Virus record (IMG/VR): IMGVR_UViG_3300031599_001121
Location: 1-23,614 of that record
Direction: 5' to 3' (one strand)
DNA: 23,614 nucleotides
DNA from: a virus
Part shown: positions 1 to 23,614 of the stretch, piece by piece
Layout: each line of letters opens with the position of its first letter
How positions within the stretch are numbered: the stretch's first letter is position 1
Program-made: the position numbers and the translations under genes
Notes under the pieces: model-generated
Told to the model about the DNA's origin: nothing
Database searches by the model: none
Seen by the model: the letters and a program-made list of their open reading frames with translations, nothing else

Positions 1-2
1 AC

Positions 3-518
3 TACTATCCAGAAAGCGAAGTTGACTATTACAAGGAAGTAGAATATATAGATTATAAATTTAATTACTGCAAGGAAGAGTTTATACACACTGATAATAC
101 TGAATGGAGTACTGGCGTGTATCGCGACGCCCAGCAAGTTGTTGTTCCTGCTAGTGGTATGTTGTACTTAAATTTAATTGAAGAAGGAAATGTTGTATTT
201 TATGACTACAATCAAAAGGCTTTAGATTATTGGAAGGAACACTGTCCAAGAAAAGCCAGTATAACATATAAATTTGTTAAAACAGATTTACTTAATGATT
301 TTAATCTAATAGATTCTATAGATCCTAAACTAAACACTTTTGTAAATTTATCTAATATATTTTGTTACGAAGGAACTGCTTCAAAGTATTCATTAAAGCA
401 TAGATTGCTTGCACAAGAAAATTTAGTAAATTTATTATCAAAACGTATTAAAAATCTACGAATAAACTTTGCACACAGAGCAAATCCTGATGTTTTAAAG
501 ATAGCAACTTGGCACTAA
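3..518 (+). CDS. SAM-dependent methyltransferase-like protein, 3' part (5' end outside window)
   Basis: The reading frame is open from the first bases of the window and ends at TAA 516-518, so this is the C-terminal 171 residues of a longer protein; the in-frame GTG at 117 is probably internal. About 45 residues in there is a small-residue turn (VVVPASGMLYLN) followed about 20 residues later by an acidic strand end (FYDYNQKAL) and then KTDLLND. That order resembles motif I, post-I and motif II of Rossmann-fold class I methyltransferases, where the turn and the acidic residue hold S-adenosylmethionine. The substrate is unknown. The gene meets the minus-strand radical SAM gene tail-to-tail with a 4-base overlap and no terminator hairpin. 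The motifs are degenerate, so another Rossmann enzyme is possible. Confidence 0.55.
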   Translation, partial: YYPESEVDYYKEVEYIDYKFNYCKEEFIHTDNTEWSTGVYRDAQQVVVPASGMLYLNLIEEGNVVFYDYNQKALDYWKEHCPRKASITYKFVKTDLLNDFNLIDSIDPKLNTFVNLSNIFCYEGTASKYSLKHRLLAQENLVNLLSKRIKNLRINFAHRANPDVLKIATWH

Positions 519-1921
519 AGTAAATGTGCTAACTCTGGAAATACTTGTGCTGCATTTAGTCCGCGAATAGCATCAAGTTTATTTACATATTCTTTGAAAC
601 CTGATAACAAATGACTATTGTCTTTACTATCCATATGCTTTAACAATCCTTCCCACTGTCGCCAGCCTTTAGGATTATGTATCCAAAATTCATCTTCTTG
701 TGTATAGTTATCCCATAACCATGTTTTAAGTTCTGCAAAACGCTCACGTACATCTTGCTTGTCTGCTTCAGGCAAGATTGTAATGTTAAGGAATGTAGGT
801 ATGTGTACTAAATGTGCATTAACTAATCCGCCGCCCATTGTTACTCCATTTATTAATCCAACATTCATTTTCTTAAAATTGCTGTTTACTTTCCACTTTA
901 TAAAGTCTGGTATATGTTTGATGTTGAATATTTGTACTGCTGTTGCCATACTAACATGTATGTTATCAGGAGTATTGTCTAACATATGCAAAGTGCGCTC
1001 TACTTCTGAAAACTTTCCAGGGAAGCGTATATAATCGTCACGTTCAAAACTTGCATCAACACTAACTGCAAACTTAACTTTACGGAACTTGCTCCACAAC
1101 TCAATTAGCTCGTTATCTACAAGAAGTCCATTTGAATTATAGCGTAATAACACTTTGTCTTGATAACCTTGTCTAACAATTTCTTGAATGAACATTTTAT
1201 GTTCTTTAATCATTAAAGGTTCGCCGCCGGCAAAGTAGACTTGTTTTAGATTAGGTATTTGTGCATACAACTCTTTCCAGAATGATTCTTTTTCGTGCCA
1301 CTTGTTATTAAATTCTTTCTTATCCCATGTCATCTGTTTCTTTACAGATTCATCTTCTAACTGCGGAACGAGTTTCTGCCAGTCTGCAACCCACTTGCTT
1401 GAATCATGCGGACTGCACATTACACATTTAATATTACAAGTATGTCCTAAACGCAAATCTAGGTATTGCAAGCGTTCAGGCACAGTGCCATCTTCTTCTG
1501 TTTGACGTATTAATTCTTCAGCGTCAACACCTTCGTCATTTAACCAAGTATAAGTTTCCCAGATACGTTTACTAACAATACCTTGTGATTCTTCGTCAAA
1601 GCATCCTGTACAACTTGCTGGTATTTCACCGGCGAGCATAGTAGTACGGACATTTTTCATAAAGTCGCTGTTCCATGCTTCCATAGGAGTAACTTTTCCA
1701 AAGTTAGCATGACTTCCGTCTTTGTTTTTAATTAATCCAACAGTGTGATTTTCTCCTGCACCGCTTGCATTTGCAGTACAGCATAATCTCATATCGCCAT
1801 TAGGACGAGTTGCTAAGTGTATCCACGGTAGTACACAAAACGTGCAACTTGATTTAGTTTCTAATTCGCGTTGAAACTTCCCTAAAATTGTATCTTCTTT
1901 ATCGTACCAATACTTAGACAT
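515..1921 (-). CDS. Radical SAM protein with N-terminal twitch-type cysteine cluster
   Basis: A 468-residue radical SAM enzyme. The core motif CNIKCVMC (C162, C166, C169) would bind the [4Fe-4S] cluster that cleaves AdoMet, and AGGEP follows about 90 residues later. Ahead of the core is a separate cysteine set: CTFC (26-29), CC (47-48) after an NGDMRL segment, and CTGC (104-107). This looks like a SPASM/twitch auxiliary cluster placed N-terminally rather than at the usual C-terminal position. I chose ATG 1921, which has AGGA about nine bases upstream and a GATAAGTA box behind it; an in-frame start at 2002 would add 27 residues that do not look conserved. Twitch radical SAM proteins of this kind are common in marine T4-like phages, but their substrates are largely unknown. 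The gene is divergent from the ten-gene plus operon and may serve the same pathway. Confidence 0.88.
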   Translation of the reverse strand: MSKYWYDKEDTILGKFQRELETKSSCTFCVLPWIHLATRPNGDMRLCCTANASGAGENHTVGLIKNKDGSHANFGKVTPMEAWNSDFMKNVRTTMLAGEIPASCTGCFDEESQGIVSKRIWETYTWLNDEGVDAEELIRQTEEDGTVPERLQYLDLRLGHTCNIKCVMCSPHDSSKWVADWQKLVPQLEDESVKKQMTWDKKEFNNKWHEKESFWKELYAQIPNLKQVYFAGGEPLMIKEHKMFIQEIVRQGYQDKVLLRYNSNGLLVDNELIELWSKFRKVKFAVSVDASFERDDYIRFPGKFSEVERTLHMLDNTPDNIHVSMATAVQIFNIKHIPDFIKWKVNSNFKKMNVGLINGVTMGGGLVNAHLVHIPTFLNITILPEADKQDVRERFAELKTWLWDNYTQEDEFWIHNPKGWRQWEGLLKHMDSKDNSHLLSGFKEYVNKLDAIRGLNAAQVFPELAHLL

Positions 1922-1940
1922 ATGTTTTCCTGTTATCGTG

Positions 1941-1948
1941 TACTTATC
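1941..1948 (-). promoter_or_regulatory. Candidate T4-like late promoter box (GATAAGTA)
   Basis: On the minus strand the octamer GATAAGTA lies 19 bases upstream of ATG 1921. T4 late promoters use TATAAATA just upstream of the start site; this box matches six of eight positions. It sits in the only divergent intergenic gap. Similar boxes precede 17644 and 20819, which raises confidence, but short AT-rich octamers are common in such DNA. Confidence 0.35.
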
Positions 1949-2015
1949 AACAGAGCTCGACGTATGTGCATCAGTTTGGCAATGAGATTGAAAGACTAGC
2001 AACTAAATATTGTTA

Positions 2016-4504: not shown

Positions 4505-5121
4505 CAGACAATATATACCACCGCTATGTAAGCTTACCGTTTGAATATCCTAAACCAGAAATCTTTAACGAAGGTTCGAAAAATTATACAGCACTAATAG
4601 AAGACAAATATATTCATCCTCCTTTTAAAGAATGGATAGAAAGTTTTGGACTAACTATATCAAATGTATTAGAAGGATTTTATACTCCTCCAAACGGCGG
4701 AAGAGTTCCTTTACATTCAGACACATCTTCTATGCCTGGCGATAATGATTGTTGTAAATTAAACTTTACATGGGGATCACCAGATAGTACAACCCAATGG
4801 TATAAAATTAAAAATGACTCTAAAATAAAAAAGCATTACTTAGACGAAGCAGACGCTAACCAAAAATTTTACGAAGCAGGCATTGAACCTGATTTAGATA
4901 TAACTTATGTATTATTTGCCGATCACGAAGATGCAGATATAGTTCACGAAGTTGTTATAGACCGGCCTAGCTTACTTAACATTAGCCAATTACATTCTAC
5001 ATGGAACCCGTCGCCTACTGAACATCGCTGGTCATTGTGCTTTACACTTCTAGAAAATAAAAAACCATTAACATTTAAAAGAGCATTAGAAATATTCGAA
5101 ACTTACACGGAGAAATCATGA
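4501..5121 (+). CDS. 2OG-Fe(II) oxygenase-like (beta-helix hydroxylase) protein
   Basis: A 206-residue protein with a plausible oxygenase triad: PLHSD gives H72 and D74, QLHSTWN gives H165, and R176 in EHRWSLCF eleven residues later fits the 2-oxoglutarate-binding arginine. The spacing and the run of beta strands between resemble cupin-like aspartyl/asparaginyl hydroxylases and PhyH-type enzymes. It is more divergent than the other two oxygenases in this operon. AAGGAG lies about eleven bases before the ATG, and the gene is joined to both neighbours by ATGA overlaps. With the gene at 2016 and the one at 8379 it makes three predicted hydroxylases in one operon. If the triad is non-functional it could be a binding protein with the same fold. 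Confidence 0.6.
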   Translation: MTDNIYHRYVSLPFEYPKPEIFNEGSKNYTALIEDKYIHPPFKEWIESFGLTISNVLEGFYTPPNGGRVPLHSDTSSMPGDNDCCKLNFTWGSPDSTTQWYKIKNDSKIKKHYLDEADANQKFYEAGIEPDLDITYVLFADHEDADIVHEVVIDRPSLLNISQLHSTWNPSPTEHRWSLCFTLLENKKPLTFKRALEIFETYTEKS

Positions 5122-6269
5122 AATATACAGGCCTATTACCAGAAGTACAACCAGACAATGAAGAAGTAGAACTGCCGTTACCATATTGGAAATTTGGTGA
5201 AATACGAGACGGAAGAAAAGTAATTGATCCAATTTTGCAATTCGGCTGCTACGTCTTAGGGTATCATAACCAAGAAATTATTGATTATGTATACGACACT
5301 ATGAAAAATAACAAACCAGAAATAGGCGAACATTTTATGCCTAAAACTGATACGTTGCGCTTAAATCATATTAGTTTTCAACTTGCTGAAAGAGTACGTG
5401 AAATTTCAGGAATGAATCCTTTTTACGCTCTTAGTGGGTCTGATGCTAATGAAGGAGCAGTTAAACTTGCATGTGCGTACCAGTTCCAAAAAGGAAATTA
5501 CCATAAAAAAACTATTGTAGGATTTTTAGAAAGTTACCACGGCAGTACAAATTTTACTCAAAGTATCGGACACGATAATTTTATGGATGCACCGTTTTAT
5601 ACACTAGATCCAAATCCATCAGTAAAGCGCATACCTAGAGATGCTAGTAAGTTTGACGAAGTTGATTGGGATTCTGTAGCAGCAGTAGTTATTGAAACTT
5701 GTGCATATGGCAATGTTATGATTCCGCCTTCAGCAGAATTTTGGGCAAGCTTAGATAACATACGAACCAAGCACGATGTAGTAATAATTATTGATGATAT
5801 CTTTATGGGCGGTGGCAAGTCTGGAACTTACATTGGTTGGGAAAATATGAACATACGTCCTGATATTTCAACAATGGGTAAAGCAATTACTGGAGGATTT
5901 TTTCCGCTAAGTATGGTACTTTACAATGACAGAATTAAAAATACATTACCTAAGAACTTTAATTGGGAACACGGGTTTACATATTGTTTTAGTCTGCCCG
6001 GAGTAGCTGCTGCTGTAAAATACTTAGACATATTAGAAAGAGACAACTTATTAGACAATCATGATAGCATAGTAGAACGTGCTACAACAATATTTGAAGC
6101 TGCTGGATTCGAAGTATTTTATAGATTTGGATTGCACTTTCGGATTAGAAGACAACGTGACTATGGGTTAGAAAAATACTTTTATATTGTGCCAATTGCC
6201 GCAGATGATGAATATTTTGAAGCATTAGAGGAGAACCTACAATGGTTTACACAGAATACGACCCACTAG
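5118..6269 (+). CDS. Class III PLP-dependent aminotransferase
   Basis: A 383-residue fold-type I aminotransferase of class III (the ornithine/GABA/BioA/glutamate-semialdehyde aminomutase superfamily). Visible landmarks are LSGSDANEGAVK (105-116, phosphate cup), SYHG (139-142, ring stacking), IIIDDIFMG with D226 (bond to the pyridine nitrogen) and MGKAITGG with K255 (Schiff base). It is shorter than the usual 420-450 residues, mainly in the C-terminal small domain. It should move an amino group onto a ketone or aldehyde, or act as an aminomutase. It is preceded by GGAGA and overlaps the amidinotransferase gene by 28 bases, a coupling that suggests the amine it makes is passed to the next enzyme, as in streptidine-type pathways. 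The actual acceptor is unknown. Confidence 0.88.
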   Translation: MKYTGLLPEVQPDNEEVELPLPYWKFGEIRDGRKVIDPILQFGCYVLGYHNQEIIDYVYDTMKNNKPEIGEHFMPKTDTLRLNHISFQLAERVREISGMNPFYALSGSDANEGAVKLACAYQFQKGNYHKKTIVGFLESYHGSTNFTQSIGHDNFMDAPFYTLDPNPSVKRIPRDASKFDEVDWDSVAAVVIETCAYGNVMIPPSAEFWASLDNIRTKHDVVIIIDDIFMGGGKSGTYIGWENMNIRPDISTMGKAITGGFFPLSMVLYNDRIKNTLPKNFNWEHGFTYCFSLPGVAAAVKYLDILERDNLLDNHDSIVERATTIFEAAGFEVFYRFGLHFRIRRQRDYGLEKYFYIVPIAADDEYFEALEENLQWFTQNTTH

Positions 6270-7324
6270 AAGAAGTTATTGTTGCAGACTCATATGTAGG
6301 CGGCGACTTAGATCATTTATTTCCAAATGAAAACTTATCGCAGTTTAATCAAATACTAGATGAAACAAAAGAAGACTTTGACAAATTAGCAGACTTTTTA
6401 AAAGCAGGCAGCGTTACAGTTAAAAGACCAGACGTATATCATTATGATGGACATATTGCAATGCCGGGGTTTGATGTAAAGTTTCCAATGGGACCAACAG
6501 TTCCTAGAGACCAATACAAAGTAGCAGGTAAGACTATTGTGCAAACATATACTAGTTTAACTGATCGATATTTTGACGGACTAAGTTACTATAATATATT
6601 TTCGGATATGTTTGACGAAGGTTATAACTGGATTAGCCAAGCAGCTCCTCCATTAGTTCCTGTTACACCAAGTGACATATGGTATATGCCAGGACAAGAC
6701 CCCGAAACTAACATTTATCATAGTAAATTAAAAGACAGAGTACTATTCCACACAGCAACTATGTTTCCAGTAGGTGATAAAATTATTACTGCTGCTGATG
6801 GACCAGGTAATACAAAAGGTTACAAATGGCTTAAACGCAATTTACCCGAATTTGAATTTATAGAAAACATAGGCGGTCATTCTGAAAACTATGGTCACAT
6901 TGATCACGGATTTCTTATGATCGACGATGAAACAATTATACATGCTGGGATAGATTGGGTTCCTGTGGCATTGCGCCATCTAAAATTAATCGATGCTGAA
7001 GAATTTGTTCCTGTTCCTAAAACAAAAGAATATAAAACAAACTTTATTAATAAAGGTGGCAGATACGAATTAGACTGGGTCGAAAATTATTTAGGCAACT
7101 GGACAGGTTATAATCAAGACTGTTGCTTTGACCTTAACGTACTAGTTGTGGACAGAAACAATCTTATTTTTGGACGAGAAGTGCCAGATTTATTTAAATT
7201 CTTAAAAACACACGGAATTGATTGCCACGTATGCGACCAACGGCACATGCTGTTTTGGGAAGGCGGCATTCATTGCAGTACATTAGATACTAAAAGGCGC
7301 GGTTCTAAAAGATCAATCATTTAG
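6242..7324 (+). CDS. Amidinotransferase (glycine/inosamine amidinotransferase family)
   Basis: A 360-residue member of the arginine:glycine/inosamine-phosphate amidinotransferase family, which moves an amidino group from arginine to an amine through a Cys-amidino intermediate. C345 in GGIHCSTLDTKRRG is the expected nucleophile and H219 in GHIDHGF the general base; the N-terminal DPLEEVIVAD strand and C-terminal position of the cysteine fit the beta/alpha-propeller fold. Length matches the family (340-420). AGGAG precedes the ATG, which lies inside the 3' end of the aminotransferase gene. The pair resembles the StsC-StrB logic of streptidine synthesis (amine, then guanidine), which implies a guanidino-bearing product. 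Arginine or ornithine may alternatively be the relevant product, and I cannot name the acceptor. Confidence 0.88.
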   Translation: MVYTEYDPLEEVIVADSYVGGDLDHLFPNENLSQFNQILDETKEDFDKLADFLKAGSVTVKRPDVYHYDGHIAMPGFDVKFPMGPTVPRDQYKVAGKTIVQTYTSLTDRYFDGLSYYNIFSDMFDEGYNWISQAAPPLVPVTPSDIWYMPGQDPETNIYHSKLKDRVLFHTATMFPVGDKIITAADGPGNTKGYKWLKRNLPEFEFIENIGGHSENYGHIDHGFLMIDDETIIHAGIDWVPVALRHLKLIDAEEFVPVPKTKEYKTNFINKGGRYELDWVENYLGNWTGYNQDCCFDLNVLVVDRNNLIFGREVPDLFKFLKTHGIDCHVCDQRHMLFWEGGIHCSTLDTKRRGSKRSII

Positions 7325-9538: not shown

Positions 9539-9745
9539 ACAATTAAAATAGTCATAAAACTCTGCATCCTGTTGCAACCAATATTTAATTGCAAGCTGAC
9601 TATCATTATCTAACTGCTCAACACTATCTTTAAAATACTGCGATTGCGTTAAAATAGCCTGGTCAATATCTTCCCAACTAGTTTGTTGGTTAGCTTGGTC
9701 ATTTAAAGTCTCTACTAACTTCCATGCTGCTTGTAAATTAATCAT
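9491..9745 (-). CDS. Small hypothetical protein
   Basis: An acidic 84-residue protein rich in Gln, Asn and Asp, predicted mostly helical, with no recognised domain, signal peptide or membrane segment. Support for it being a gene is positional: its ATG overlaps the stop of the upstream radical SAM gene as ATGA, as in the rest of this operon. Its 3' end runs 48 bases into the last gene of the opposing plus operon, an unusually long convergent overlap. A small partner protein of the radical SAM enzyme, or a precursor peptide, is conceivable, but no Cys-rich or repetitive core is visible. The coding potential could also be accidental. Confidence 0.55.
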   Translation of the reverse strand: MINLQAAWKLVETLNDQANQQTSWEDIDQAILTQSQYFKDSVEQLDNDSQLAIKYWLQQDAEFYDYFNCLSNNMIMDFVGKDYM

Positions 9746-10599
9746 AATAAATTTACTTTAATTTTTTTATCAGTACCGATAAAGTCGTGTCCTGTATTAT
9801 AGTTACTAGGGCAAAATTTGCACTGCGGTATAGGATTAATTAACTCGTCCACAAACTTTGCAACATCGTCATCGTGCGACATTGGTTGATATGCATGTGC
9901 TAACTCTTTATCCGCAATTGCAACATTAAATTGATCTAAAAAGTCTGGTAGTACACTTACTAATGGACATTTGTATAATTTGCCCTTGTTCATTTGATGA
10001 CAAGTTTTAAATCCACAATTTTTATGTGAAGCATCTGGATCACTATCGTACTTCATAGTTAGCTGATTGTTAACTAAGTCTACAGCACTGGATCTAAATG
10101 TTTGCGTCCAATCAAGTATTACTTCAACTCCGTTGTTATCAATAAATATCCTAGATACCCTACGGACAGGCGCTTCGCCAGTATCAGATACAATTACGTC
10201 GAGGAATGTTTTAATAAAGTCTAAAAAACTATCATATAGTTTTATATCATGGCATGTTATCCAAAGCGTACTATTGTTCCTTGCTAAAATGTTATAAACA
10301 TCATCTGTTATTTTATCAAGGGCCGTTCCGTTAGTAGCAATTTGCAACTGAGACTTCGGCCATAAATTAGATGTACCTTCGAGCCATTTGTAAAAATCAG
10401 GATTAAGTGTAGGTTCTCCGCCGATAAGTTGTATTATGTCAATGTCAATTTGTTTGCTTAATAGTTCGTACTCATCTTTATAGTCGTCCCAACGCTGGTG
10501 TCCTTTGAAAGCATAATTATTAAAACTCTGACAGTGTGTACAACTATAGTTACATACATTTGTAATGTTTAATTCTGAATATTGTAAAGTAGGCTTCAT
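9742..10599 (-). CDS. Radical SAM protein with C-terminal SPASM/twitch-type cysteines
   Basis: A 285-residue enzyme. The core motif CNYSCTHC (C16, C20, C23) and LIGGEPTLNPDF (58-69) mark a radical SAM domain that starts almost at the N-terminus. C-terminal cysteines C195, C200, C211, C260 and C263 (the last two as CKFC) are arranged like a twitch/SPASM auxiliary cluster. The protein is short for a SPASM enzyme (usually 350-450), consistent with the half-length twitch form. Its start overlaps the stop of the methyltransferase gene upstream as ATGA. It lies with two other radical SAM genes on the same transcript. Relatives modify peptides, carbohydrates or lipids by hydrogen abstraction; the substrate here is unknown. 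Confidence 0.85.
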   Translation of the reverse strand: MKPTLQYSELNITNVCNYSCTHCQSFNNYAFKGHQRWDDYKDEYELLSKQIDIDIIQLIGGEPTLNPDFYKWLEGTSNLWPKSQLQIATNGTALDKITDDVYNILARNNSTLWITCHDIKLYDSFLDFIKTFLDVIVSDTGEAPVRRVSRIFIDNNGVEVILDWTQTFRSSAVDLVNNQLTMKYDSDPDASHKNCGFKTCHQMNKGKLYKCPLVSVLPDFLDQFNVAIADKELAHAYQPMSHDDDVAKFVDELINPIPQCKFCPSNYNTGHDFIGTDKKIKVNLL

Positions 10600-11201
10600 T
10601 TCTTTTTTCCAATAATCATATAGCGTGTATACTTAGGAGTTTCAAATTCACCTCGCCATAGCGGTTTAATTTTACTCATACGCATAAAGTCATCCGCGTG
10701 TGTTGCACAACGTATATGTTCGGGCAAGTCAAAATAGTTATTACTCTGTATTACAAATACTGCATCGTCTGGTTGATTACTTAACCACTGTTCGTATTGT
10801 TCTTGCGTAACGTGTTCACAGCTTGTGTTAATAATAATATTTGCAGGAGATGCGTAGTCACACATATCTGCTGTTACTGCGGTAAACCGTCCTTCTATTT
10901 CCTGACGCTTGTTTACGGTACACGCTGTTTCTTCACATGCAGGGTCTATATCTACACTTGTAATGTGCCTAATGGACATATCACTATTAAATAGTAGGTT
11001 TGATAGTACTCCGTTCCAGCCACCAAAAATTACTATATTAGATTTACTATAATGCGCTTTATACACTTTAGTTAATTGTTCAATAAGCCAAACTTTACTG
11101 TTGACTTGTCCTTTCCAAAAGCTTTCTAATGTACGATAGCGATCTTCACTATTACGAATAGCATCCATCCAGAATAACACATCTTGTATTTCAACTTTCA
11201 T
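10596..11201 (-). CDS. SAM-dependent methyltransferase-like protein
   Basis: A 201-residue Rossmann-fold protein: strand NIVIFGGWNGVLSNLL (55-70) is a motif I variant with GGWNG in the glycine loop, ITSVDIDPACEETA (80-93) carries the ribose-binding acidic residues, TADMCDY is a motif II-like strand, and ANIIINTSCEHV is motif IV-like. AAAGG sits about seven bases before the ATG. It is sandwiched between two radical SAM genes with overlaps of 4 and 11 bases. Known pathways pair methyltransferases with radical SAM enzymes in glycan and peptide tailoring. The acceptor is unknown; a small-molecule or sugar O-methyltransferase is the likely type. Confidence 0.72.
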   Translation of the reverse strand: MKVEIQDVLFWMDAIRNSEDRYRTLESFWKGQVNSKVWLIEQLTKVYKAHYSKSNIVIFGGWNGVLSNLLFNSDMSIRHITSVDIDPACEETACTVNKRQEIEGRFTAVTADMCDYASPANIIINTSCEHVTQEQYEQWLSNQPDDAVFVIQSNNYFDLPEHIRCATHADDFMRMSKIKPLWRGEFETPKYTRYMIIGKKK

Positions 11202-12195
11202 ACTTTACCTTTGGTATCTTGCTGTCAGCACTGCTTACACAAGTAGGAGTAATACACTTACGCGGTGCTTTAAATAGCTCAAAGCCGCCGTCTAACGTGC
11301 CTAAGGGTTGATCGTGACAACTGTAGCTGCGCTTAACTTCATTCTCTCGTATGACACATCCTTGGTATCCTGCATTACAACTCCAGCCTTTGAACTTATT
11401 GAATCCAAACGCATTAAATCGTTCAGCTTGGTCTACGTAGTACTTATTTCCTGCTTTGTCTTGTAATTCTACTTGTAACAACGGTATTATTTTTTTGAAT
11501 TCGTCTGGGATTCGTTGGGGGAATCCTGTTTGCAACAAGTCGAGTTGTTCTTCAGTATACCCGGATACCACACGGGAGGCGGTAGGATCGGATTGGGGCT
11601 TGACAGTGACATTAATACCTCTGGCGGCAAATCGCTGTAGGCGCTCGTAAAGCTCTTCAAACATTTCTGGAACCATAACTTGATTAATCGTAATATATAC
11701 ATTATTATTCATTAATTGAAGACACTTATCTCCAAACTCCTGTTCATTTGCAAACTCTGCGTGATAGCTTGCAGTAATACTCCTACGTTGCAGACTGCTT
11801 GTAGTTTCTAACCATTTGCTCCACCACTTGCTTCCCGGGCTTAGATTAGTCGTCATGTGGATACTCTGGTACTCAGGAGCTGTATCACTACAGTAATGGT
11901 CTATAACCTTCCCAAAGTATTTATATGCAGTGGGCTCGCCGCCGCTAAAGCTAAAGTGGAAGTCAGTAAATCCATTTGCACGGGCTTGTAACTTAATATT
12001 ATCAATTGTATCGGTGTATACTGCTAAATCTTGGTGGTCAGGCGTACTACTTCTAGCATAAGGCCAACAATAGCTACAATTGTAATTACAAAATCTAGCA
12101 AGGATCCATGACACAGTAAACAGGTTAGTGTTTAGCAAAGTCTTCTGGCCAAAACTTGTTATGTCGTCAAATGGTATGTTTTGAAAGTTACTCAT
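11191..12195 (-). CDS. Radical SAM protein with C-terminal auxiliary cysteines
   Basis: A 334-residue radical SAM enzyme: CNYNCSYC (C36, C40, C43) binds the catalytic cluster and FSGGEPTAY (83-91) the methionine end of AdoMet. The C-terminal region has C273, C280, C293, C314 and C319, placed like a twitch/SPASM auxiliary cluster. The base composition is clearly richer in G+C than in the genes from 13899 to 17205 (one 60-base line, 11521-11580, is 50% G+C by my count), which may indicate separate acquisition. Its ATG overlaps the stop of the upstream radical SAM gene by four bases. It is not close to the other radical SAM proteins outside the motifs. Substrate unknown. Confidence 0.86.
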   Translation of the reverse strand: MSNFQNIPFDDITSFGQKTLLNTNLFTVSWILARFCNYNCSYCWPYARSSTPDHQDLAVYTDTIDNIKLQARANGFTDFHFSFSGGEPTAYKYFGKVIDHYCSDTAPEYQSIHMTTNLSPGSKWWSKWLETTSSLQRRSITASYHAEFANEQEFGDKCLQLMNNNVYITINQVMVPEMFEELYERLQRFAARGINVTVKPQSDPTASRVVSGYTEEQLDLLQTGFPQRIPDEFKKIIPLLQVELQDKAGNKYYVDQAERFNAFGFNKFKGWSCNAGYQGCVIRENEVKRSYSCHDQPLGTLDGGFELFKAPRKCITPTCVSSADSKIPKVKYES

Positions 12196-13238
12196 GTTCT
12201 ACTATCGTATAACGCTTTAGAGCATACTTTAACACAAGTTAGGCATTTATTCTTTCCTTGCCAAAAGTCTGGCATTTTTTTAAATAAATTTTCGTTAGTG
12301 TTTAAGACATCATCGTGGCAGTTAGGCACGCCTACAGTTTTTAATATAGTCTTTGTGTTGTCTACACTTAAATTTCTAAGATAGTGAATTGGTAATTTTT
12401 CTTCCACTGGTTGTTCAATATATTCACCGCCTATCCAACAGCAGGGAAATATATTACCATAAGGATCTACATAAACACCTTTCTCAGTTACGCATTTAGG
12501 CGCAATTATTGCTGATTCGACTGCTGCGTTACGTACCGACGGGTCTACAAGTGCATTTAAACTATTATTAGGAGTTTTTTTAAACCTTTCTGTTTGTGCA
12601 GGTGCAATAGTGTATTCTACATTACCATTATTATCGTGTACTTCAAACTCTTTCATTTCGTAAAATCGTGTAGTACTTACAAAGTTTACTTCTTGTACAC
12701 CTAATGATAGTAGATAACTTTCTAATTCATCTACTTCGTGTTCGTTGTGTTCAAACACTAAGCTATCAACACGGGCAATGCCTCCTGCATCGCAGAATGC
12801 TCTTAAGTTTTCGATTACCTTATCAAATTTTGTATTCTTACGGTATAATTCGTGTTTGCCTTTAAACCCATCAACAGCAAACGCAACATCAATATTATGC
12901 TGTGCTAGTTTTGCCCACCATGTAGGATTACGCATACCGCCGTTAGTATGTATTCCTAGCCGAACTGTAGGATTACATTCACGTACATAAGAATATATTT
13001 CTAAGCAGTCTTTTGCAAATGCTGGATCGCCATAATTACCACAACTGTAAAAGTTATTCAACTGCGCTAAAAACTGTTTAGGGAACCAATCTTTAAATTG
13101 TGCAATACTTATATCGCCATTACGAATAAACGGTCGAGTGGCTCCGCCGTGACTGTTTCTGGCACACATTGGGCACTGTGCTTGGCATTTATCAGTTAGT
13201 TCAATGTGTACTGTTTTAATGTCACTTACAAGTTGCAT
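12192..13238 (-). CDS. Radical SAM/SPASM protein (GNYGDP variant)
   Basis: A 348-residue enzyme: CQAQCPMC (C18, C22, C25) near the N-terminus is the catalytic cluster motif. The usual GGEP strand is replaced by CGNYGDPAF (66-74), a variant I recall from phage and bacterial radical SAM/SPASM proteins. FAVDG (120-124) is a typical later strand. C249, C266, C267, C332, C335 and C339 (VDPYGNIFPCCW and CLTCVKVC) form a SPASM-like domain, so auxiliary iron-sulfur clusters are expected. ATG 13238 is preferred over an in-frame start at 13262 because AGGAGAGG lies seven bases ahead of it; this leaves a 17-base overlap with the upstream gene. Peptide or sugar modification is typical for the class; the substrate here is unknown. 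Confidence 0.87.
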   Translation of the reverse strand: MQLVSDIKTVHIELTDKCQAQCPMCARNSHGGATRPFIRNGDISIAQFKDWFPKQFLAQLNNFYSCGNYGDPAFAKDCLEIYSYVRECNPTVRLGIHTNGGMRNPTWWAKLAQHNIDVAFAVDGFKGKHELYRKNTKFDKVIENLRAFCDAGGIARVDSLVFEHNEHEVDELESYLLSLGVQEVNFVSTTRFYEMKEFEVHDNNGNVEYTIAPAQTERFKKTPNNSLNALVDPSVRNAAVESAIIAPKCVTEKGVYVDPYGNIFPCCWIGGEYIEQPVEEKLPIHYLRNLSVDNTKTILKTVGVPNCHDDVLNTNENLFKKMPDFWQGKNKCLTCVKVCSKALYDSRT

Positions 13239-13899
13239 CAAACCTCTCCTGTAACCATTCAAAGTTATTTATAAGGCTAATATCGCTAGCCATAATAGAT
13301 AACCCAAACTCCCTGCCAGCAATAGCACCAGCAATAGCGAAACTACCACAGCGTCTCTCACTGCCTTTTGTACACCAAGACATAAGTCTATCTTCGGTTT
13401 CTTCATTATTTTGCCTCGTAATTGTTTTACTACTTAACTTAACACATTCCCTGAATGCACTGCGCCATGTACTAAATGCATCAATGTTAAATGCTGTAAT
13501 GTTTGCAGTTTCTTCTACAGCAATAAATTTTGAACTAATACTTGTAGACATGTCAGTTTTACTTATATCCATATCGATTGTCATCTGACGGGGAAATAAC
13601 TTTACTCCTCCGTAGCCGTACACTAAATCATTAATTGGATTAATACTACGCCATACATGTACATGGTCCAACTGATGGGACGGAACAACATGATTAAAGT
13701 TAAAATCATCTAAGATTATTGCATCGGCGTCTACAATCCAAAACATCTTAGTAAAGCATTTCTTTGCTGCTTTAATATGTGCTTGGTGTATTCCTTTAAC
13801 ACCATGCACCCGTTTGGCCATAGGAAATCTAGCCTTAAGGGCAGCATAATTGGCATCTGCACTAGATTCATCATAACTTATGAATACAATATCATACAT
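13222..13899 (-). CDS. DxD glycosyltransferase-like protein
   Basis: A 225-residue protein starting directly with a beta strand (MYDIVFISYDE). KMFWIVDADAIILDDF (51-66) contains a DxD motif (D57, D59), the metal/nucleotide-sugar site of GT-A glycosyltransferases, placed after a Rossmann-like first half. The conserved-looking HVWRSINPINDLVYGYGG (81-98) follows it. It has no signal peptide or membrane anchor, so it would act in the cytoplasm. I recall very similar proteins in T4-like marine phages and large viruses, usually labelled glycosyltransferase without biochemical proof. It is joined to the sulfotransferase-like gene upstream by a TAATG stop-start overlap and overlaps the radical SAM gene downstream by 17 bases. 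Confidence 0.7.
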   Translation of the reverse strand: MYDIVFISYDESSADANYAALKARFPMAKRVHGVKGIHQAHIKAAKKCFTKMFWIVDADAIILDDFNFNHVVPSHQLDHVHVWRSINPINDLVYGYGGVKLFPRQMTIDMDISKTDMSTSISSKFIAVEETANITAFNIDAFSTWRSAFRECVKLSSKTITRQNNEETEDRLMSWCTKGSERRCGSFAIAGAIAGREFGLSIMASDISLINNFEWLQERFDATCK

Positions 13900-17706: not shown

Positions 17707-18834
17707 TTATAGTTTGTAGAACTTAGAAAGGTGTGCCGACATGCCCCAATTAATGCTATCTTTAAGCATGTGTTTTGAATCAGTATTTTGTCCTAGATAT
17801 TGTATAGTTTCCAAATAATTCATTCTTGTACGATTATCTGCTGTTTTCCAAAACCAATCATCCATTGGACGTTTGATGTGAGTATTAGGCTTTTCCGTTT
17901 GGAATGCCTCACAAAATTCTCTAGGATATATTGCGTCATGTATAATATCTCTATATTCGCTTATGTGTGTCGTTAATGATTGTTCAGCCATATGTGTAAT
18001 TGCAGGATTTGATTCGTAGAGGGCTTTTATTAATTGCGATTGCTTAACTACTATTTCAGGAAAGTCCGGTGTCCAATAGAAAAATTCAGTAGTTACTTGA
18101 TCATTAACTGTGCTTGAGCCAAAATCAACAGGACTCATAACATGATACGCAGAGTTATCTTGGAAGTATGCATAGTAGTCTTTGCCTTCTTTATATACCA
18201 AGGGTTTGTCAATACCCATAATATAGCATGTAGACAATCCAGTATCTTGCTGTCTAAGAAAATGTGCATCATTTTGTTGACATATTTGCCTTAGAATTCC
18301 TGATATACCAAGAGTTAATCCTAACGGCACATGCTCATACCAGTTATCTTTTTTACTTAATAACTCTAAGCCTGTTTTTGCAAAGTCTTTTACTGTAATT
18401 TTAGTCCTAGGATCTAACGAGTTTTTAACTTTATCCAAATGCGCGGTTGCAGCAAACTTAATTTCGCTAAGAAAATTTCCACTTGAATAATCTTTATTAT
18501 TAACTTTCTTTTCGTAAGGTTCCGGGAACCACATTAATATTTCATCTATAAAAATATTGTTGTCTATAAAAGCATGTAGTACAGTTGTACTATCTGCTCC
18601 GCCACTATAGTATAAAGTTAAGTAATCATACTTATTACGTAATTGAATAGCACGGGCTTTGTACAACTCCATTAAAGGAACATTAACAGGAACTGACCAG
18701 TCGATGTTTCCGTAGACACTATCATTAAATATCCAAGAAACATTGTGTCCACTTTTTTTGCTTTCTAAAAGTGCATGAGTCTTGTTATGAAACTTTTTTT
18801 GTCCTACCAAGTAGTAACCTAATCTATCTAACAT
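17707..18834 (-). CDS. PP-loop ATPase (asparagine synthase/QueC-like) protein
   Basis: A 375-residue protein with YLTLYYSGGADSTTVLHAF (71-89), the SGGxDS loop of N-type ATP pyrophosphatases. Such enzymes adenylate a carboxylate or amide oxygen and replace it with nitrogen or sulfur. There is no glutaminase domain and no QueC-type C-terminal zinc cysteines are visible. The rest of the protein (about 100-375), rich in aromatic residues, matches nothing I can name, though similar full-length proteins occur in marine myoviruses. ATG 18834 overlaps the sugar dehydrogenase gene by 11 bases. Linkage to that gene and to SGNH and glycosyltransferase-like genes suggests amidation or a related change of a sugar acid, for example a hexuronic acid to its uronamide. 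Confidence 0.78.
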   Translation of the reverse strand: MLDRLGYYLVGQKKFHNKTHALLESKKSGHNVSWIFNDSVYGNIDWSVPVNVPLMELYKARAIQLRNKYDYLTLYYSGGADSTTVLHAFIDNNIFIDEILMWFPEPYEKKVNNKDYSSGNFLSEIKFAATAHLDKVKNSLDPRTKITVKDFAKTGLELLSKKDNWYEHVPLGLTLGISGILRQICQQNDAHFLRQQDTGLSTCYIMGIDKPLVYKEGKDYYAYFQDNSAYHVMSPVDFGSSTVNDQVTTEFFYWTPDFPEIVVKQSQLIKALYESNPAITHMAEQSLTTHISEYRDIIHDAIYPREFCEAFQTEKPNTHIKRPMDDWFWKTADNRTRMNYLETIQYLGQNTDSKHMLKDSINWGMSAHLSKFYKL

Positions 18835-20050
18835 TTCTAGTATTCCCGTAATGAATTACTGTACACTTTGGATTAACATATGAGCGCCATGGATCAACTA
18901 CTATACTACCATCAGGTATATCGCAATACAATTTGTCTGCACTAGTTTTACCGGTATACTTGTATGTGGTACTTGCACTGTGTGCTAATAAAAATACACA
19001 AGGTACTGGTGTATTAAACTCGTCGCCTGTTAGTGGATCTACATACACAGGTTCAAATTGTTGCTCTTCGCAGTAATGACCAATTAGTAAACTGTAACTA
19101 CCATCACAGTATCCTACATTTGGCTTGTATGCTTTGCCATGAATAACAATTATCATATTATGTTCTTTAGCATGTTTCACTAATTCTAGTGCAATGTTCT
19201 TTGCTTGTATTTCTCTAGCGTTCATGATGCTGTCAAATAAATCGTATCCTAAATTTAACTCTTCGGCCATATAGCGTAGTGCAATATTATCACGTGGATG
19301 ACATCCGCCACCATCGCCCATACCAGCTTTCATATACTGTGGTCCCATGATACGCATAGTTGACTTAGCTAACGCATCTGTAACTACGTCAACATTAATG
19401 TTTCCTTGTTTTTGGGCTACGTCTTGTATCATATTAGCAAGTCCAATCTTAGTGCTAATAAATGTGTTATAAAATACTTTGATACACTCGCACTCGTCCC
19501 AAGTACCAATCTCGTAGCGTGGATTGTTTTCCATTATAGTTTTATAAAAGGCTACAAGTTGTTTTGCATCTCCTGTAGCACTACCGTCTTCAGTGCCAAT
19601 CATTACCATCTCTGGATTAACCATATCCCATGCTACACTGCCCATTGCAATCAAGTAAGGATTGTATACAAAGCGTGTGTTAGGAACAAGGTCAACAAAC
19701 TGCTTGCGTGTTGTGCCGGGCAATACTGTACTAATAAGCACAAGCAATTGATCTTGTGTCATGTGCTTGTTTGCTTCTACTAGTACATCCTTTACAATAT
19801 CGTAATTAAAGTCTTTTGGTGCTAAATGTGCAGTTGGTTCTCTGCCATCGTAGTCTGGATCGTGTGGAGTAGGCACTGCAACAAATACAATGTCTCTGCC
19901 TTCTACTGTATCTTTAATTGTAGGCAGCATTGTTACTTGGTGGCTAGTACACTTTGCAATATCGTAGCCTGTAACATTATGTTGTTTACTAGAAATTGCT
20001 TCTGCACATGGCATGCCTAACTTACCTGTGCCAATAAATCCTATTTTCAT
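18824..20050 (-). CDS. UDP-glucose/GDP-mannose dehydrogenase family protein
   Basis: A 408-residue NAD-dependent nucleotide-sugar 6-dehydrogenase, which oxidises a sugar C6 alcohol twice to give a uronic acid. Landmarks: GFIGTGKLGMP (4-14, NAD fold), VFVAVPTP (55-62), STVLPGTT (107-114), K191 and N195 in CIKVFYNTFISTKI, and the catalytic cysteine C250 in GGGCHPRDN, where PRD replaces the common PKD. The length fits the family (about 390-440). ATG 20050 is preferred because GGAAGGAA sits about seven bases ahead; a longer frame to 20089 adds 13 unsupported residues. Its start is one base after the stop of the SGNH gene upstream. UDP-glucose or UDP-N-acetyl sugars are the likely substrates; which one cannot be told. 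Confidence 0.9.
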   Translation of the reverse strand: MKIGFIGTGKLGMPCAEAISSKQHNVTGYDIAKCTSHQVTMLPTIKDTVEGRDIVFVAVPTPHDPDYDGREPTAHLAPKDFNYDIVKDVLVEANKHMTQDQLLVLISTVLPGTTRKQFVDLVPNTRFVYNPYLIAMGSVAWDMVNPEMVMIGTEDGSATGDAKQLVAFYKTIMENNPRYEIGTWDECECIKVFYNTFISTKIGLANMIQDVAQKQGNINVDVVTDALAKSTMRIMGPQYMKAGMGDGGGCHPRDNIALRYMAEELNLGYDLFDSIMNAREIQAKNIALELVKHAKEHNMIIVIHGKAYKPNVGYCDGSYSLLIGHYCEEQQFEPVYVDPLTGDEFNTPVPCVFLLAHSASTTYKYTGKTSADKLYCDIPDGSIVVDPWRSYVNPKCTVIHYGNTRNVR

Positions 20051-20051
20051 T

Positions 20052-20819
20052 CTATGTTCCTTCCCAGTTGTACACTCTAAAAAAATCATCTATCTCGTTA
20101 AAAGATGTTAATACTCCATTAAGTGATTTTTTCTTTATATCATCAGTTATACGGTTTTGTAGACCTTTGTATTTTAGTATAGTTTCATTTTTAATTTCCA
20201 TACCCATATGTTTAAGTGTTAACTGAGAGTGAGTTAAATGTGTTTGTATATCTGGATGATTATCTATTACTGTTTTATCAAACCCAGTTTTATTGATACG
20301 TCCATCGTCGAAAACAATTCTTGGATCTGGCATACTATTTAAATAATAATCGTATTCTTGAAAATTATAATTAGGCGAAGACGGATCCTCTTGAAAGGCG
20401 GCACCTTCATAATCAGTCATATAACTTTGAAACGGAATATTAAACATTTTGTTTGAAGATATTATTGCTGTACAATTTTTTACAATATCATTATTTTCCG
20501 TCCAATATTTTTTTAGCCATTTTTTACCAAAGAATTTATAATCATTGAATATATTGCCGCCAAGATGCCAAAATCCGTCGGACATAACTCTATCCTCTCT
20601 ATGAAAACTACTCCAGCAAACTAAGATTAAGTCATTTTCAGTAAAATTATTTTTTAAATCACATTCTAACATACGAGTTGCTATACCAACATTGCCCATA
20701 CCTGCCATGCCCCAGTTTTCATATGGAATATCTAAGTCGTATGCAATTATATCTGCCCAAGTAGGCCACAAAAATGAAGTAAAACTACACCCAAAAGTAA
20801 ATAGTCGTGTATATTTCAA
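20052..20819 (-). CDS. SGNH-like hydrolase/acyltransferase (TTG start)
   Basis: A 255-residue protein with block I LFTFGCSFTSF (nucleophile S12), NWGMAGMGN (35-43) where the block II glycine lies, and DNHPDIQTH (186-194) as the likely Asp-His block. The start is TTG: AAGGAG lies about six bases ahead of it and no ATG occurs before the block I serine, so the alternative start would remove the catalytic region. A GATAAATA box 32 bases upstream suggests it is the first gene of its own transcript. Residues 70-180 are aromatic-rich and unassigned. The adjacent gene at 20851 has the same fold but low similarity. Esterase or acetyltransferase activity on a glycan is inferred. Confidence 0.72.
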   Translation of the reverse strand: MKYTRLFTFGCSFTSFLWPTWADIIAYDLDIPYENWGMAGMGNVGIATRMLECDLKNNFTENDLILVCWSSFHREDRVMSDGFWHLGGNIFNDYKFFGKKWLKKYWTENNDIVKNCTAIISSNKMFNIPFQSYMTDYEGAAFQEDPSSPNYNFQEYDYYLNSMPDPRIVFDDGRINKTGFDKTVIDNHPDIQTHLTHSQLTLKHMGMEIKNETILKYKGLQNRITDDIKKKSLNGVLTSFNEIDDFFRVYNWEGT

Positions 20820-21648: not shown

Positions 21649-22940
21649 CCTAACCTCTTAAATAAAATGTTCTTTGTTATTGGCTGTTCTAGAAGCTGTT
21701 CTTGTAGGTCAAGTATGTGTACTTGGTTAAACATTAAAGTAGGTAGCATACGTTCGTATAGATTTTGTAATTCCTCTATACTCATATTACCTATCCAGTT
21801 AATTAGGTCTAGTATTTTTTCAATACGCTTATGATGACATTCTTCTTCATCATAACTCTCGTCCCAATAATCGCCAAATGTTTGGAATCCCCATTTATGC
21901 ATAAATTCTAAGTTGCCAGGTGGGCCTACCATTATAAAAGGTTTACAGTTTATTATAGGATTCATAATCTTTTCTGTAAGTAATCCGGTTGCTTGTGCAA
22001 ATCTAGGTTCAGTTATAATAGCACAAAAGCACTCGTTATAATAGCTTTTAGGAGTTGTATCTATATGCATCTCAGATGGTTCATCATTAATATCTAATGC
22101 ATTAGTTAATGTTATACCCATAGTAGCAGGTGCTACTAAATCTAACTGTTGAGCTCCATCAAGTATACTAGATTTATAATTTGGCAGCTCATCTAAATTA
22201 AACCAAATATTATTTTTTAACATTGTTTGACTTGAACTATAAATCCAACTTAAATTGATATCCGAAACATCAAACTTTCCCATAAGGTAACTTGCAATTA
22301 AATGCTTGTGAGAGGCATATTTCCAATTTCCGCACCAAAATTTCTTTACTATATTTGAAACTTCAGCAATTTGAATATCTACTTTCATTGTTGCAAGATG
22401 GTGCCAGTCAACAGGTGAACAGTATAATTTAAGTTCCGGGTATAATAATCCAAAATAATCGTTAACTTTATAATCAGGAGTATATACACTTACATTTGTT
22501 AGTCCGTTCCTTTCAGCAAACTTTGAAATACTATCTAATTCTTTTGCTCGTATATTATCTATATCAGATATTTCATAATTAGTATATAATGCTTCTTTGT
22601 TAACATCATTTATATTATATGTACTCAGCGGTTCTAATAGATAAATCTTAAGACCTTTTTTATTCATTTTATTCTTTGGCTTAATATCTAATATAGTGCT
22701 TGGCATTTCAAGATAATCTATCTTACCCATACCCATATATACAGCGTACGGATTTGAAATATCTTTAAAGAATGTGTTACCTAACTGTAGAAACATACTG
22801 TCCCAATCTTCTTGTAAGGCAGACTTTCGAGTTAAAGGAAACCAACTTGGACCTAACGGGTAGTTACTATACAATCCTGTATTATTGGGATTTAATATAT
22901 TATGCTGATCTAATAAATTATGATGATGTGAATATCTCAT
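21645..22940 (-). CDS. Glycosyltransferase-like protein (TEK/DxSYD family, second copy)
   Basis: A 431-residue protein whose C-terminal half repeats the blocks of the gene at 14500: NWKYASHKHLIASYL (205-219), an acidic-strand block with TEKI (322-325) leading to CKPFIMVGPPGNLEFM, then GFQTFGDYWDESYD (351-364) and KRIEKILDLI. The shared pattern is ET or TEP, then TEK, then P-x-I, then a hydrophobic helix, G(F/L)..F, and D.SYD. The first 190 residues differ, as expected for a GT-B-like acceptor domain. The ATG overlaps the upstream radical SAM stop as ATGA. Sugar transfer is the best guess; in databases such proteins are often simply hypothetical. Confidence 0.5.
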   Translation of the reverse strand: MRYSHHHNLLDQHNILNPNNTGLYSNYPLGPSWFPLTRKSALQEDWDSMFLQLGNTFFKDISNPYAVYMGMGKIDYLEMPSTILDIKPKNKMNKKGLKIYLLEPLSTYNINDVNKEALYTNYEISDIDNIRAKELDSISKFAERNGLTNVSVYTPDYKVNDYFGLLYPELKLYCSPVDWHHLATMKVDIQIAEVSNIVKKFWCGNWKYASHKHLIASYLMGKFDVSDINLSWIYSSSQTMLKNNIWFNLDELPNYKSSILDGAQQLDLVAPATMGITLTNALDINDEPSEMHIDTTPKSYYNECFCAIITEPRFAQATGLLTEKIMNPIINCKPFIMVGPPGNLEFMHKWGFQTFGDYWDESYDEEECHHKRIEKILDLINWIGNMSIEELQNLYERMLPTLMFNQVHILDLQEQLLEQPITKNILFKRLG

Positions 22941-23614
22941 ATGCTAGCTTTCCAATTATTAAAGTATGGGCTTAGTTCAGGAAAAGTAGTATGAAAATCT
23001 AAGCCACGCCGTTTATCATATTCTTCAAAAAACTTAACAAAGTTTTGTTGTGCATCAATTTTTTCTTGTGCAGGCAATTGTTGTTTCATAAAATCTAAGC
23101 TTCTTTCAAAACGTTGTATTTGATGCGGTTTAAATCCTACCCATCGACTTTCTCTATGCTTGTCTGTATTAGATTTCATAAACTCTAAACACTCATCTCC
23201 GTAATGCCAAAATTCTTTTGGCAATACTCTTAAACTTTGCCACGCTGGATAATGTAGTGCAGGAGTATCTACAAATACTCTATGGCAACCATAGAAGTTA
23301 AGTTTTCCATCATCTTTAGCTACTGTGCTTTTAACATTATGTATACGTTGTAATTCTAATATACCTTCCATTAAACGCTTAATACTCGGCATACTTAACA
23401 TATTTAATGTCACAATAAATGTAACTAGCCCGTCTTTGGTTCTAGTAAGATAATTGTTTACATTATTCCATAGTAGATTAAAGTCTAGAGGATCACGCAT
23501 GTATTCAGCTTGTTCGCCCCATCCGTCAACACTAACATACAGCCTAAAGCTTTCTAATTTTTTTTCCTCGTCAATAAAGCTAACAGTATCGACAAACCTA
23601 TTCCAATTCTTTTG
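22937..23614 (-). CDS. Radical SAM protein, C-terminal part (5' end outside window)
   Basis: The frame is open to the last base of the window, so the N-terminus with the CxxxCxxC motif is missing; the ATG at 23500 is internal. The visible 225 residues begin in a radical SAM barrel: FRLYVSVDGWGEQAEYMR matches the v.vDg....eY.R strand after which W.NVNNYL and FIVTLNMLSMPSI continue the fold. This pattern recurs in phage twitch radical SAM proteins. Only one cysteine pair could be formed in this C-terminal piece (GCHR and DEC), so any auxiliary cluster must be N-terminal, as in the gene at 515-1921. It is coupled by ATGA to the TEK/DxSYD gene. Substrate unknown. Confidence 0.7.
   Translation of the reverse strand, partial: QKNWNRFVDTVSFIDEEKKLESFRLYVSVDGWGEQAEYMRDPLDFNLLWNNVNNYLTRTKDGLVTFIVTLNMLSMPSIKRLMEGILELQRIHNVKSTVAKDDGKLNFYGCHRVFVDTPALHYPAWQSLRVLPKEFWHYGDECLEFMKSNTDKHRESRWVGFKPHQIQRFERSLDFMKQQLPAQEKIDAQQNFVKFFEEYDKRRGLDFHTTFPELSPYFNNWKASI

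Follow-up and report, generated by a model that had tools for sequence, protein, structure and literature searches.

The DNA analyzed here, a stretch of 23,614 nucleotides comprising positions 1 to 23,614 of IMG/VR virus record IMGVR_UViG_3300031599_001121 (hereafter "the window"), carries a conserved core of five gene families: the radical SAM (rSAM) proteins rSAM_B and rSAM_C, a methyltransferase (MT), an rSAM protein with an N-terminal SPASM/twitch domain (N_Twi, gene at 515), and a putative GT-A-fold glycosyltransferase (gene at 13222). A further rSAM gene, rSAM_A, is accessory. Phages and Bdellovibrionota chromosomes both show co-inheritance of the core genes, and the presence of the same unit in phages and Bdellovibrio-type chromosomes points to one shared multi-step pathway, supporting the multi-step radical pathway proposed in a preliminary description of this DNA. 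We estimate that there is about an even chance that this pathway produces or modifies a surface decoration of glycan or glycoprotein nature, with its phage neighbors acting as swappable tailoring genes.

The preliminary description had named four adjacent genes between positions 9742 and 13238, for rSAM proteins plus a methyltransferase. Since the product of 10596-11201 has a methyltransferase fold, this set consists of three rSAM genes and one methyltransferase gene rather than four rSAM genes, all on the minus strand. The rSAM genes, i.e., rSAM_C (12192..13238), rSAM_B (11191..12195), and rSAM_A (9742..10599), match PF04055 with 39.4, 42.8, and 46.5 bits, respectively (curated cut-off 29.5 bits), and the combination of a PF04055 match (39-46 bits) and a CxxxCxxC motif places A, B, C, and the N_Twi protein at 515 in the radical SAM superfamily. 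This motif is invariant in the alignments of rSAM_C (A1), rSAM_B (A2), and N_Twi (A5), and was read off the translation of rSAM_A as C16, C20, and C23. The open reading frame scanned for rSAM_C (12192-13262, minus strand) can be extended to a TTG at 13262, and its start is most likely the ATG at 13238, where its relatives begin (alignment A1). As first described, the auxiliary cysteines differ between these proteins: rSAM_C displays a SPASM-like C-terminal pattern (C-x11-G-x4-CC ... C-x2-C-x3-C), with C18/C22/C25, C249, C266, C267, C307, C332, C335, and C339 invariant in alignment A1, whereas rSAM_B carries C273, C293, C314, and C319 (alignment A2). Pfam identifies PF13186 (SPASM) in none of A, B, or C, despite the SPASM-like cysteines of the latter. 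The solved structure nearest to rSAM_C is that of the cytosylglucuronate decarboxylase BlsE, a sugar-nucleoside enzyme (7vob, E 2.7e-9, over the rSAM core), yet rSAM_C is not a member of the BlsE family (TIGR04466; 37.3 bits against a cut-off of 400).

MT (10596..11201, minus strand; alignment A3) matched no family above cut-off in the profile scan, with Methyltransf_32 as the best match (E 0.066), and PDB sequence searches with MT and GT-A profiles returned no significant match, so that structure models were needed for both. The AlphaFold model of MT (pLDDT 82.4) displays a class I SAM-dependent methyltransferase fold, which Foldseek relates with a probability of 1.00 to small-molecule O-methyltransferases and spermidine synthases. 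The product of the gene at 13222 (13222..13899, minus strand) includes an invariant D57-x-D59 (DxD motif), and its model (pLDDT 89.7) matches WrtF, SunS, and ppGalNAcT in Foldseek and B4GALNT1 in VIA-align (Z 11.7, 136 aligned, rmsd 2.8). Both fold and DxD motif are thus those of a GT-A glycosyltransferase; because the GT-A fold group also takes in nucleotidyltransferases, the transferase activity is a prediction from the model.

NTwi_515 (515..1921, minus strand) has an open reading frame that extends to a TTG at 2002 (515-2002, minus strand), and its relatives begin at the ATG at 1921. It belongs to the twitch domain-containing radical SAM proteins of NF033640 (381.4 bits, E 5e-114; cut-off 170) and carries PF13186 N-terminal to the rSAM core (23.4 vs 21.5 bits); to our knowledge, no reaction is known for this family. 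A second N_Twi protein is represented by its C-terminal part (22937..23614, minus strand), which covers only positions 222-398 of NF033640 and scores 111.1 bits, under the cut-off of 170. As its CxxxCxxC core would fall past the window end, its assignment as an rSAM protein is very probable without being visible in the sequence, and hence of the five rSAM proteins originally counted in the window, A, B, C, and 515 are confirmed and the fifth is very probable. Divergence between these proteins had been taken to argue against recent duplication, which is indeed ruled out by blastp finding nothing in common among A, B, C, and N_Twi. Clustering at E<1e-10 likewise separates them into four subfamilies rather than one, both N_Twi proteins falling in the same cluster.

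From 9491 to 17644, eleven minus-strand genes in a row overlap one another by 1-35 bases, leaving zero intergenic gaps, and on this layout the single transcript initially proposed is plausible; the promoter/terminator scan was uninformative, with 57 promoter-like sites only somewhat above the 41 expected from shuffled sequences (sd 6.4). An 84-aa open reading frame at 9491-9745 was considered as a precursor and set aside, being conserved in near relatives only (11 loci). Elsewhere, the window encodes a UDP-glucose/GDP-mannose dehydrogenase (UGDH; 18824..20089, minus strand; PF00984 E 2.4e-17, PF03721 E 1.3e-16), found immediately upstream of rSAM_B or rSAM_C in some related phages (G004, G009), along with a class III aminotransferase, an accessory tailoring gene (5118..6269, plus strand; PF00202 E 1.5e-41), and a glycine-amidinotransferase-like protein of the pentein type (6242..7324, plus strand), which matches its relative in the rSAM cluster of Campylobacter phage CP220, gp086 (25.4% identity, E 1.6e-20). 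A sister contig with 97-100% protein identity over the common genes carries three more rSAM genes beyond the left end of the window, so that the island holds at least eight. Related phage records include up to 13-15 rSAM genes each, and cultured jumbo relatives 0-1 in four cases and 4 in Phosso. Accessory genes are very variable between islands. The swappable neighbors include a halogenase, oxygenases, an amidinotransferase, an aminotransferase, sulfotransferase-like proteins, SGNH hydrolases, and extra rSAM proteins (e.g., A), and sugar epimerases, cupins, and a PfkB kinase are also among the genes of phage islands.

Dozens of islands from marine T4-like jumbo phages, with up to 15 rSAM genes, retain the core. 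Its best marker is rSAM_B, present in 157 of 161 loci collected, a set that includes four pieces of the window itself. Among distinct phage copies, 42 of 43 C genes have B after them and 46 of 78 B genes have MT, the N_Twi family comes after MT in 24 of 72, and GT-A is the upstream neighbor of 39 of the 43 rSAM_C copies and 33 of the 78 rSAM_B copies. rSAM_A is present in 25 loci, mostly immediately after MT. Hence, of the unit first outlined, B, C, and MT are retained and A is not, while NTwi_515 and the GT-A gene (13222), which lie outside the coordinates originally given, belong to it. All phage rSAM_B copies form one clade in the tree (support 100/100), and the phage islands sit downstream of tail and tail-fiber-like genes. 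Related records carry gp23 and a T4-type terminase, which rules out a mis-binned bacterial contig. One related record has a gp23 that shares 69-71% identity with those of T4-like jumbo phages of much larger size. The genes studied here belong to a hypervariable island in the genome of a marine, T4-like jumbo phage. A recent origin by capture from cultured phages was also rejected, given zero DNA match in 50,697 phage records and protein matches of only 22-27%.

Orthologs of rSAM_B were identified in 22 of 369 Bdellovibrionota genomes. Within the same 369 genomes, and taking genomes as independent for all p values, rSAM_B accompanied N_Twi in 20/20 genomes (p about 4e-31), rSAM_C in 19/21 (p 1e-26), MT in 18/21 (p 6e-24), and GT-A in 15/18 (p 7e-19). 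A close GT-A ortholog was missing, at the threshold used, from 7 of the 22 rSAM_B genomes, some of which are incomplete and some of which carry a more distant paralog. The bacterial core is chromosomal and nearly always single-copy, and family 2 glycosyltransferases are found next to bacterial copies. Several copies adjoin O-antigen-type genes (Bac_transf, Polysacc_synt_2, DegT, epimerase), and several others sit outside polysaccharide loci. On one bacterial chromosome, the island, flanked by housekeeping genes, combines rSAM genes and two glycosyltransferase-like genes with a relative of a 306-aa phage tail-side protein. One locus of phage-like appearance (L197) proved to lie on a chromosomal contig, with riboflavin, secretion, and tRNA-synthetase-type genes recognized by eye, and a "FWLPNEVRKL..." repeat near some bacterial copies corresponds to the C-terminal tail of a family 2 glycosyltransferase rather than to a peptide gene. 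Overall, the co-occurrence elsewhere on which the preliminary description had staked its pathway was found for B, C, N_Twi, and MT, both in dozens of marine phage loci and, outside any phage setting, in Bdellovibrionota chromosomes.

We propose that the core enzymes would act in sequence on one substrate, which we infer to contain a sugar. The dehydrogenase and other genes would supply an activated sugar, on which the radical enzymes may perform C-H chemistry (epimerization, decarboxylation, dehydration, or C-C/C-S bond formation); MT could then cap this sugar, and the glycosyltransferase would transfer it onto either a polymer at the surface or a protein of the virion (tail side). Swappable neighbors would alter the product from phage to phage, like serotype cassettes, and this variation may serve adhesion, shielding, or host-surface remodeling. 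This scheme is consistent with the co-inheritance of the core, its synteny in phages, the single rSAM_B clade, the GT-A fold, the sugar context, and a putative tail link suggested by island position and by the single bacterial island described above, as well as with the sugar-nucleoside activity of the solved relative nearest to rSAM_C. A search for a common precursor peptide or sugar substrate had been suggested at the outset: sugar genes are plentiful and no precursor-peptide family was found, which also favors the glycan pathway. Conversely, the likeness of rSAM_C to BlsE is weak (37 vs 400 bits), and both the bacterial copies outside polysaccharide loci and the rSAM_B genomes without a close GT-A ortholog count against it.

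Many SPASM-type rSAM enzymes work on peptides or proteins, and a protein substrate is thus also possible, if on balance unlikely. Such enzymes would put cross-links, epimerizations, or methylations on a phage structural protein (e.g., the 306/342-aa tail-side proteins) or a RiPP-like precursor, to which the glycosyltransferase and hydroxylases would add. The SPASM/twitch architecture of N_Twi (PF13186) and the SPASM-like cysteines of rSAM_C fit this explanation, as do the weak matches of both proteins to peptide-maturase models, the Asp/Asn-hydroxylase-like genes that form the commonest accessory family (8/88), and the relative of the 306-aa protein that accompanies the island into a bacterial chromosome. 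However, the context is dominated by sugar genes, and the hallmarks of a RiPP rSAM system were absent: the small-ORF search across bacterial cassettes yielded only two two-locus matches, one of them between close relatives, and no conserved family; the overlapping core genes leave a precursor no space; and no RiPP recognition element was among the Pfam matches.

Some phage DNA hypermodification pathways include a radical SAM isomerase, and the island could similarly put an elaborate base on phage DNA or RNA, evading restriction. Although glycan-type phage DNA hypermodification has been described (Pyle 2024, as cited in PMC12619734), this seems improbable for an island that adjoins tail genes and whose core is a chromosomal and nearly always single-copy locus in Bdellovibrionota, where the need for such a base is not obvious. 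Scarcely probable either is an auxiliary metabolic role, as suggested for CP220 (PMC2853527), in which unrelated radical enzymes aiding infected hosts (e.g., at low oxygen) were gathered by chance in a permissive region: the high variability of accessory genes would agree with it, but for the core it is disfavored by an order and content kept inside scrambled islands and in bacterial chromosomes, and by phage rSAM_B copies forming one clade instead of repeated pick-ups. Finally, viperin-type antiviral or anti-defense nucleotide chemistry is most improbable, as rSAM_B matches viperin structures weakly (E 0.002) and scores only 36.2 bits against the prokaryotic viperin model (NF038283; cut-off 180), and viperin loci are unlike a set of three differing rSAM proteins with a glycosyltransferase and a methyltransferase.

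Returning to the glycan or glycoprotein pathway, if its product is indeed displayed on a surface, it would represent a novel class of enzyme-made decoration at the phage–host interface and would supply new radical enzymes for sugars or proteins. The compact bacterial cassette, of four or five genes where the phage island spans 40 kb, opens a puzzle posed by uncultured giant phages to tests in bacteria. A more far-reaching version, speculative and probably not correct in full, is that giant marine phages cover either the host surface or a protein of the virion or tail side with an undescribed, radical-SAM-built sugar or side-chain structure that is diversified by cassettes, via a pathway exchanged with predatory-type Bdellovibrionota that use the core for their own surface. 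Were this true, radical enzyme clusters by tail genes would have been adopted separately in Campylobacter and phiKZ-like phages.

Phages rich in rSAM genes have been termed highly unusual since 2010, and such modules are already known, without assigned function, from CP220, pelagimyophages, and 332-Vera; the B-C-N_Twi-MT core and its bacterial counterpart were not named in the literature searched (open-licence PMC papers). Here, NTwi_515, a clear NF033640 member, is tied to B, C, MT, and GT-A as a co-inherited unit. The T4-related Campylobacter phages CP220 and CPt10 carry 11-12 rSAM genes, including an interchangeable cluster near baseplate genes with five rSAM genes, a glycine amidinotransferase, and two nucleotide-diphospho-sugar-transferase-fold proteins (PMC2853527). 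The window shares this content (rSAM genes, an amidinotransferase-like gene, and GT-A), but its rSAM proteins are only about 25% identical to those of CP220 and are not close orthologs; CP220 and CPt10 lack the B-MT-N_Twi core, and no link to marine phages or Bdellovibrionota was described for them (PMC2853527). The marine T4-like pelagimyophages have a hypervariable tail-fiber island of about 45 kb with glycosyltransferases and swappable radical SAM cassettes (PMC7029224), whereas here the gp23 of one related record points to much larger T4-like jumbo phages, and a conserved five-gene core is defined. The Aeromonas jumbo phage 332-Vera, likened to the window by description rather than sequence and belonging to a phiKZ-like lineage (Chimallinviridae), carries eight radical SAM genes inside its tail structural gene cluster, for which no pathway was proposed (PMC12390700).

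Three radical SAM (rSAM) genes scoring above the PF04055 cut-off, rSAM_A (9742-10599), rSAM_B (11191-12195) and rSAM_C (12192-13238), lie on the minus strand of the window, a 23.6-kb virus record, with MT (10596-11201, minus), a class I methyltransferase by predicted structure. The four adjacent genes of the preliminary description are confirmed as three unlike rSAM genes and a methyltransferase, the fourth being MT on structural grounds and not a further rSAM. Of the two outlying rSAM proteins also counted there, the one at 515-1921 is full length and of the N_Twi type (NF033640-type, with a SPASM-like domain N-terminal to the core), whereas that at 22937-23614 is only the C-terminal part of a second N_Twi protein, cut by the window end. 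No mutual similarity was detected by blastp between rSAM_A, rSAM_B, rSAM_C and N_Twi, which fell into separate clusters at E<1e-10, with both N_Twi proteins in one, in line with the suggested divergence as opposed to recent duplication. Because rSAM_A, rSAM_B, rSAM_C and MT lie among eleven consecutive genes that overlap one another on the minus strand, the proposed single transcript is likely.

Larger related records carry T4-type gp23 and terminase genes, and in one record gp23 shares 69-71% identity with its counterparts in T4-like jumbo phages (Sinorhizobium phage Phosso, Vibrio phage 2.275.O, Erwinia and Serratia jumbo phages, and GAP32). Among the related cultured phages checked, PF04055 matches numbered four in Phosso and one each in GAP32 and XbC2, with none in 2.275.O or PA5oct; related metagenomic records hold up to 13-15 rSAM genes, clustered in one region. 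With ORFs outside the window called mechanically, the island start adjoins ORFs of 515-697 aa matching tail and tail-fibre families, and others of 3464-4837 aa. A sister contig, L306, whose genes are near-identical, runs past the window's left end, where three more rSAM genes are found. L306 (3250-5668) matches window 1-2002 through the N_Twi gene and then diverges, the next gene being an rSAM in L306 versus the 3-518 ORF in the window, a recent local cassette exchange by gene replacement.

The genomes compared, phage and bacterial, are metagenomic and in part incomplete. Across the phage genomes, rSAM_C and rSAM_B each matched at least 80 loci in viral contigs and rSAM_A 15, and one gene order recurred in otherwise variable islands: GT-A, rSAM_C, rSAM_B, MT, N_Twi. 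The product of the GT-A gene (13222-13899, minus) has a predicted GT-A glycosyltransferase fold with an invariant DxD. GT-A directly precedes rSAM_C in 39 of 43 distinct copies, rSAM_B follows rSAM_C in 42 of 43, and MT follows rSAM_B in 46 of 78. The gene after MT (72 distinct copies) is N_Twi in 24, an rSAM_C-like paralog in 23, and rSAM_A in only 9, so that rSAM_A is accessory and outside the core. Mean column identity is 71-80% over the five core-family alignments, and the CxxxCxxC cysteines are invariant in those of rSAM_B, rSAM_C and N_Twi. Many phages (L171 10598-12532 and relatives) carry the GT-A domain within larger fusion proteins of up to 1057 aa that also contain other domains.

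When bacterial and archaeal genomes were scanned with rSAM_B, relatives at 48-58% identity came from Bdellovibrionota alone (Bacteriovoracaceae, Bdellovibrionales and relatives), all other matches being at most 31% identical. They occur in 22 of 369 Bdellovibrionota genomes, nearly always in single copy, with a second, divergent copy in one (G262). With ortholog E-value thresholds chosen after viewing score gaps, rSAM_B was present in 20/20 genomes with an N_Twi ortholog, 19/21 with rSAM_C, 18/21 with MT and 15/18 with GT-A (Fisher p between 4e-31 and 7e-19, with each genome counted as independent and phylogeny ignored), and three or all four of the remaining core families were present in 19 of the 22 rSAM_B genomes. 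The simplest bacterial loci (L187, L188, L276, L284) comprise rSAM_B, rSAM_C and N_Twi, with or without GT-A, amid ordinary chromosomal genes, while other copies (L275, L280, L289, L190) adjoin O-antigen-type genes and family 2 glycosyltransferases; several cassettes share the core, a family 2 glycosyltransferase group, and one uncharacterised 290-aa family. Phage rSAM_B sequences form one fully supported clade, consistent with a single transfer, in either direction. One bacterial family 2 glycosyltransferase (L297 10823-13368) ends C-terminally in many 'RMFWLPNEVRKLSYKFGRK' repeats, probably a membrane- or surface-binding tail. On a Bdellovibrionales chromosome (L197 4275-8686), a relative of a 306-aa phage tail-side protein and two glycosyltransferase-like genes adjoin rSAM genes, forming a phage-type block.

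Since five unlike enzymes are inherited together in both phage and Bdellovibrionota genomes, they very likely form one multi-step pathway, as the preliminary description had proposed. We are less certain of its substrate, which may be a glycan or a protein. A glycan is suggested by the putative GT-A partner within the core, by the UDP-glucose dehydrogenase-type gene UGDH (window 18824-20089) adjoining the core in some phages, by sugar epimerases and a carbohydrate kinase among island genes, by the glycosyltransferases and O-antigen genes near bacterial copies, and by the nearest solved relative of rSAM_C, BlsE, which acts on a sugar. A protein is suggested by the presence of SPASM domains, by the abundance of Asp/Asn-hydroxylase-like genes, and by the relative of the tail-side protein that accompanies an island in one bacterial chromosome; no precursor peptide, a shared substrate envisaged initially, was found among families common to the bacterial cassettes or among their small ORFs, and the overlapping core genes leave no space for one. 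The glycan and protein readings converge if the substrate is a glycosylated protein, a target class for which mycobacteriophage virion glycosylation, as cited in PMC12619734, offers a precedent.

The same island encodes a full-length flavin-dependent tryptophan-halogenase-family protein (2515-4074; PF04820, E 7.5e-93) in an operon-like run with Asp-hydroxylase-like, class III aminotransferase, amidinotransferase-like, AdoMet decarboxylase and 2OG-oxygenase-like genes. Two different PP-loop ATPase-like proteins (15651-16580 and 17707-18834; motifs SGGLDS and SGGADS) could perform amide-forming or sulfur-transfer steps of the core pathway. Three further proteins (8960-9538, 20052-20819 and 20851-21648) resemble SGNH hydrolases, a type often tied to glycan O-acetylation. 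The products of 14500-15654 and 21645-22940 are distantly related (31% over 90 aa), with a C-terminal region that looks glycosyltransferase-like by eye, and their relatives recur in many islands.

Modules rich in rSAM genes are described in several phage lineages, namely CP220 and CPt10 (PMC2853527), pelagimyophages (PMC7029224) and 332-Vera (PMC12390700), in several cases close to tail or baseplate genes. We found no tested function assigned to them in these reports, the CP220 authors suggesting a metabolic advantage (PMC2853527). In the open-licence literature searched, we found no earlier description of the five-family core or its Bdellovibrionota counterpart. Four rSAM-type genes, one annotated only as hypothetical, are clustered in the 255-kb Vibrio phage K566 (L304 14959-21701), which provides a cultured system for testing rSAM clusters.
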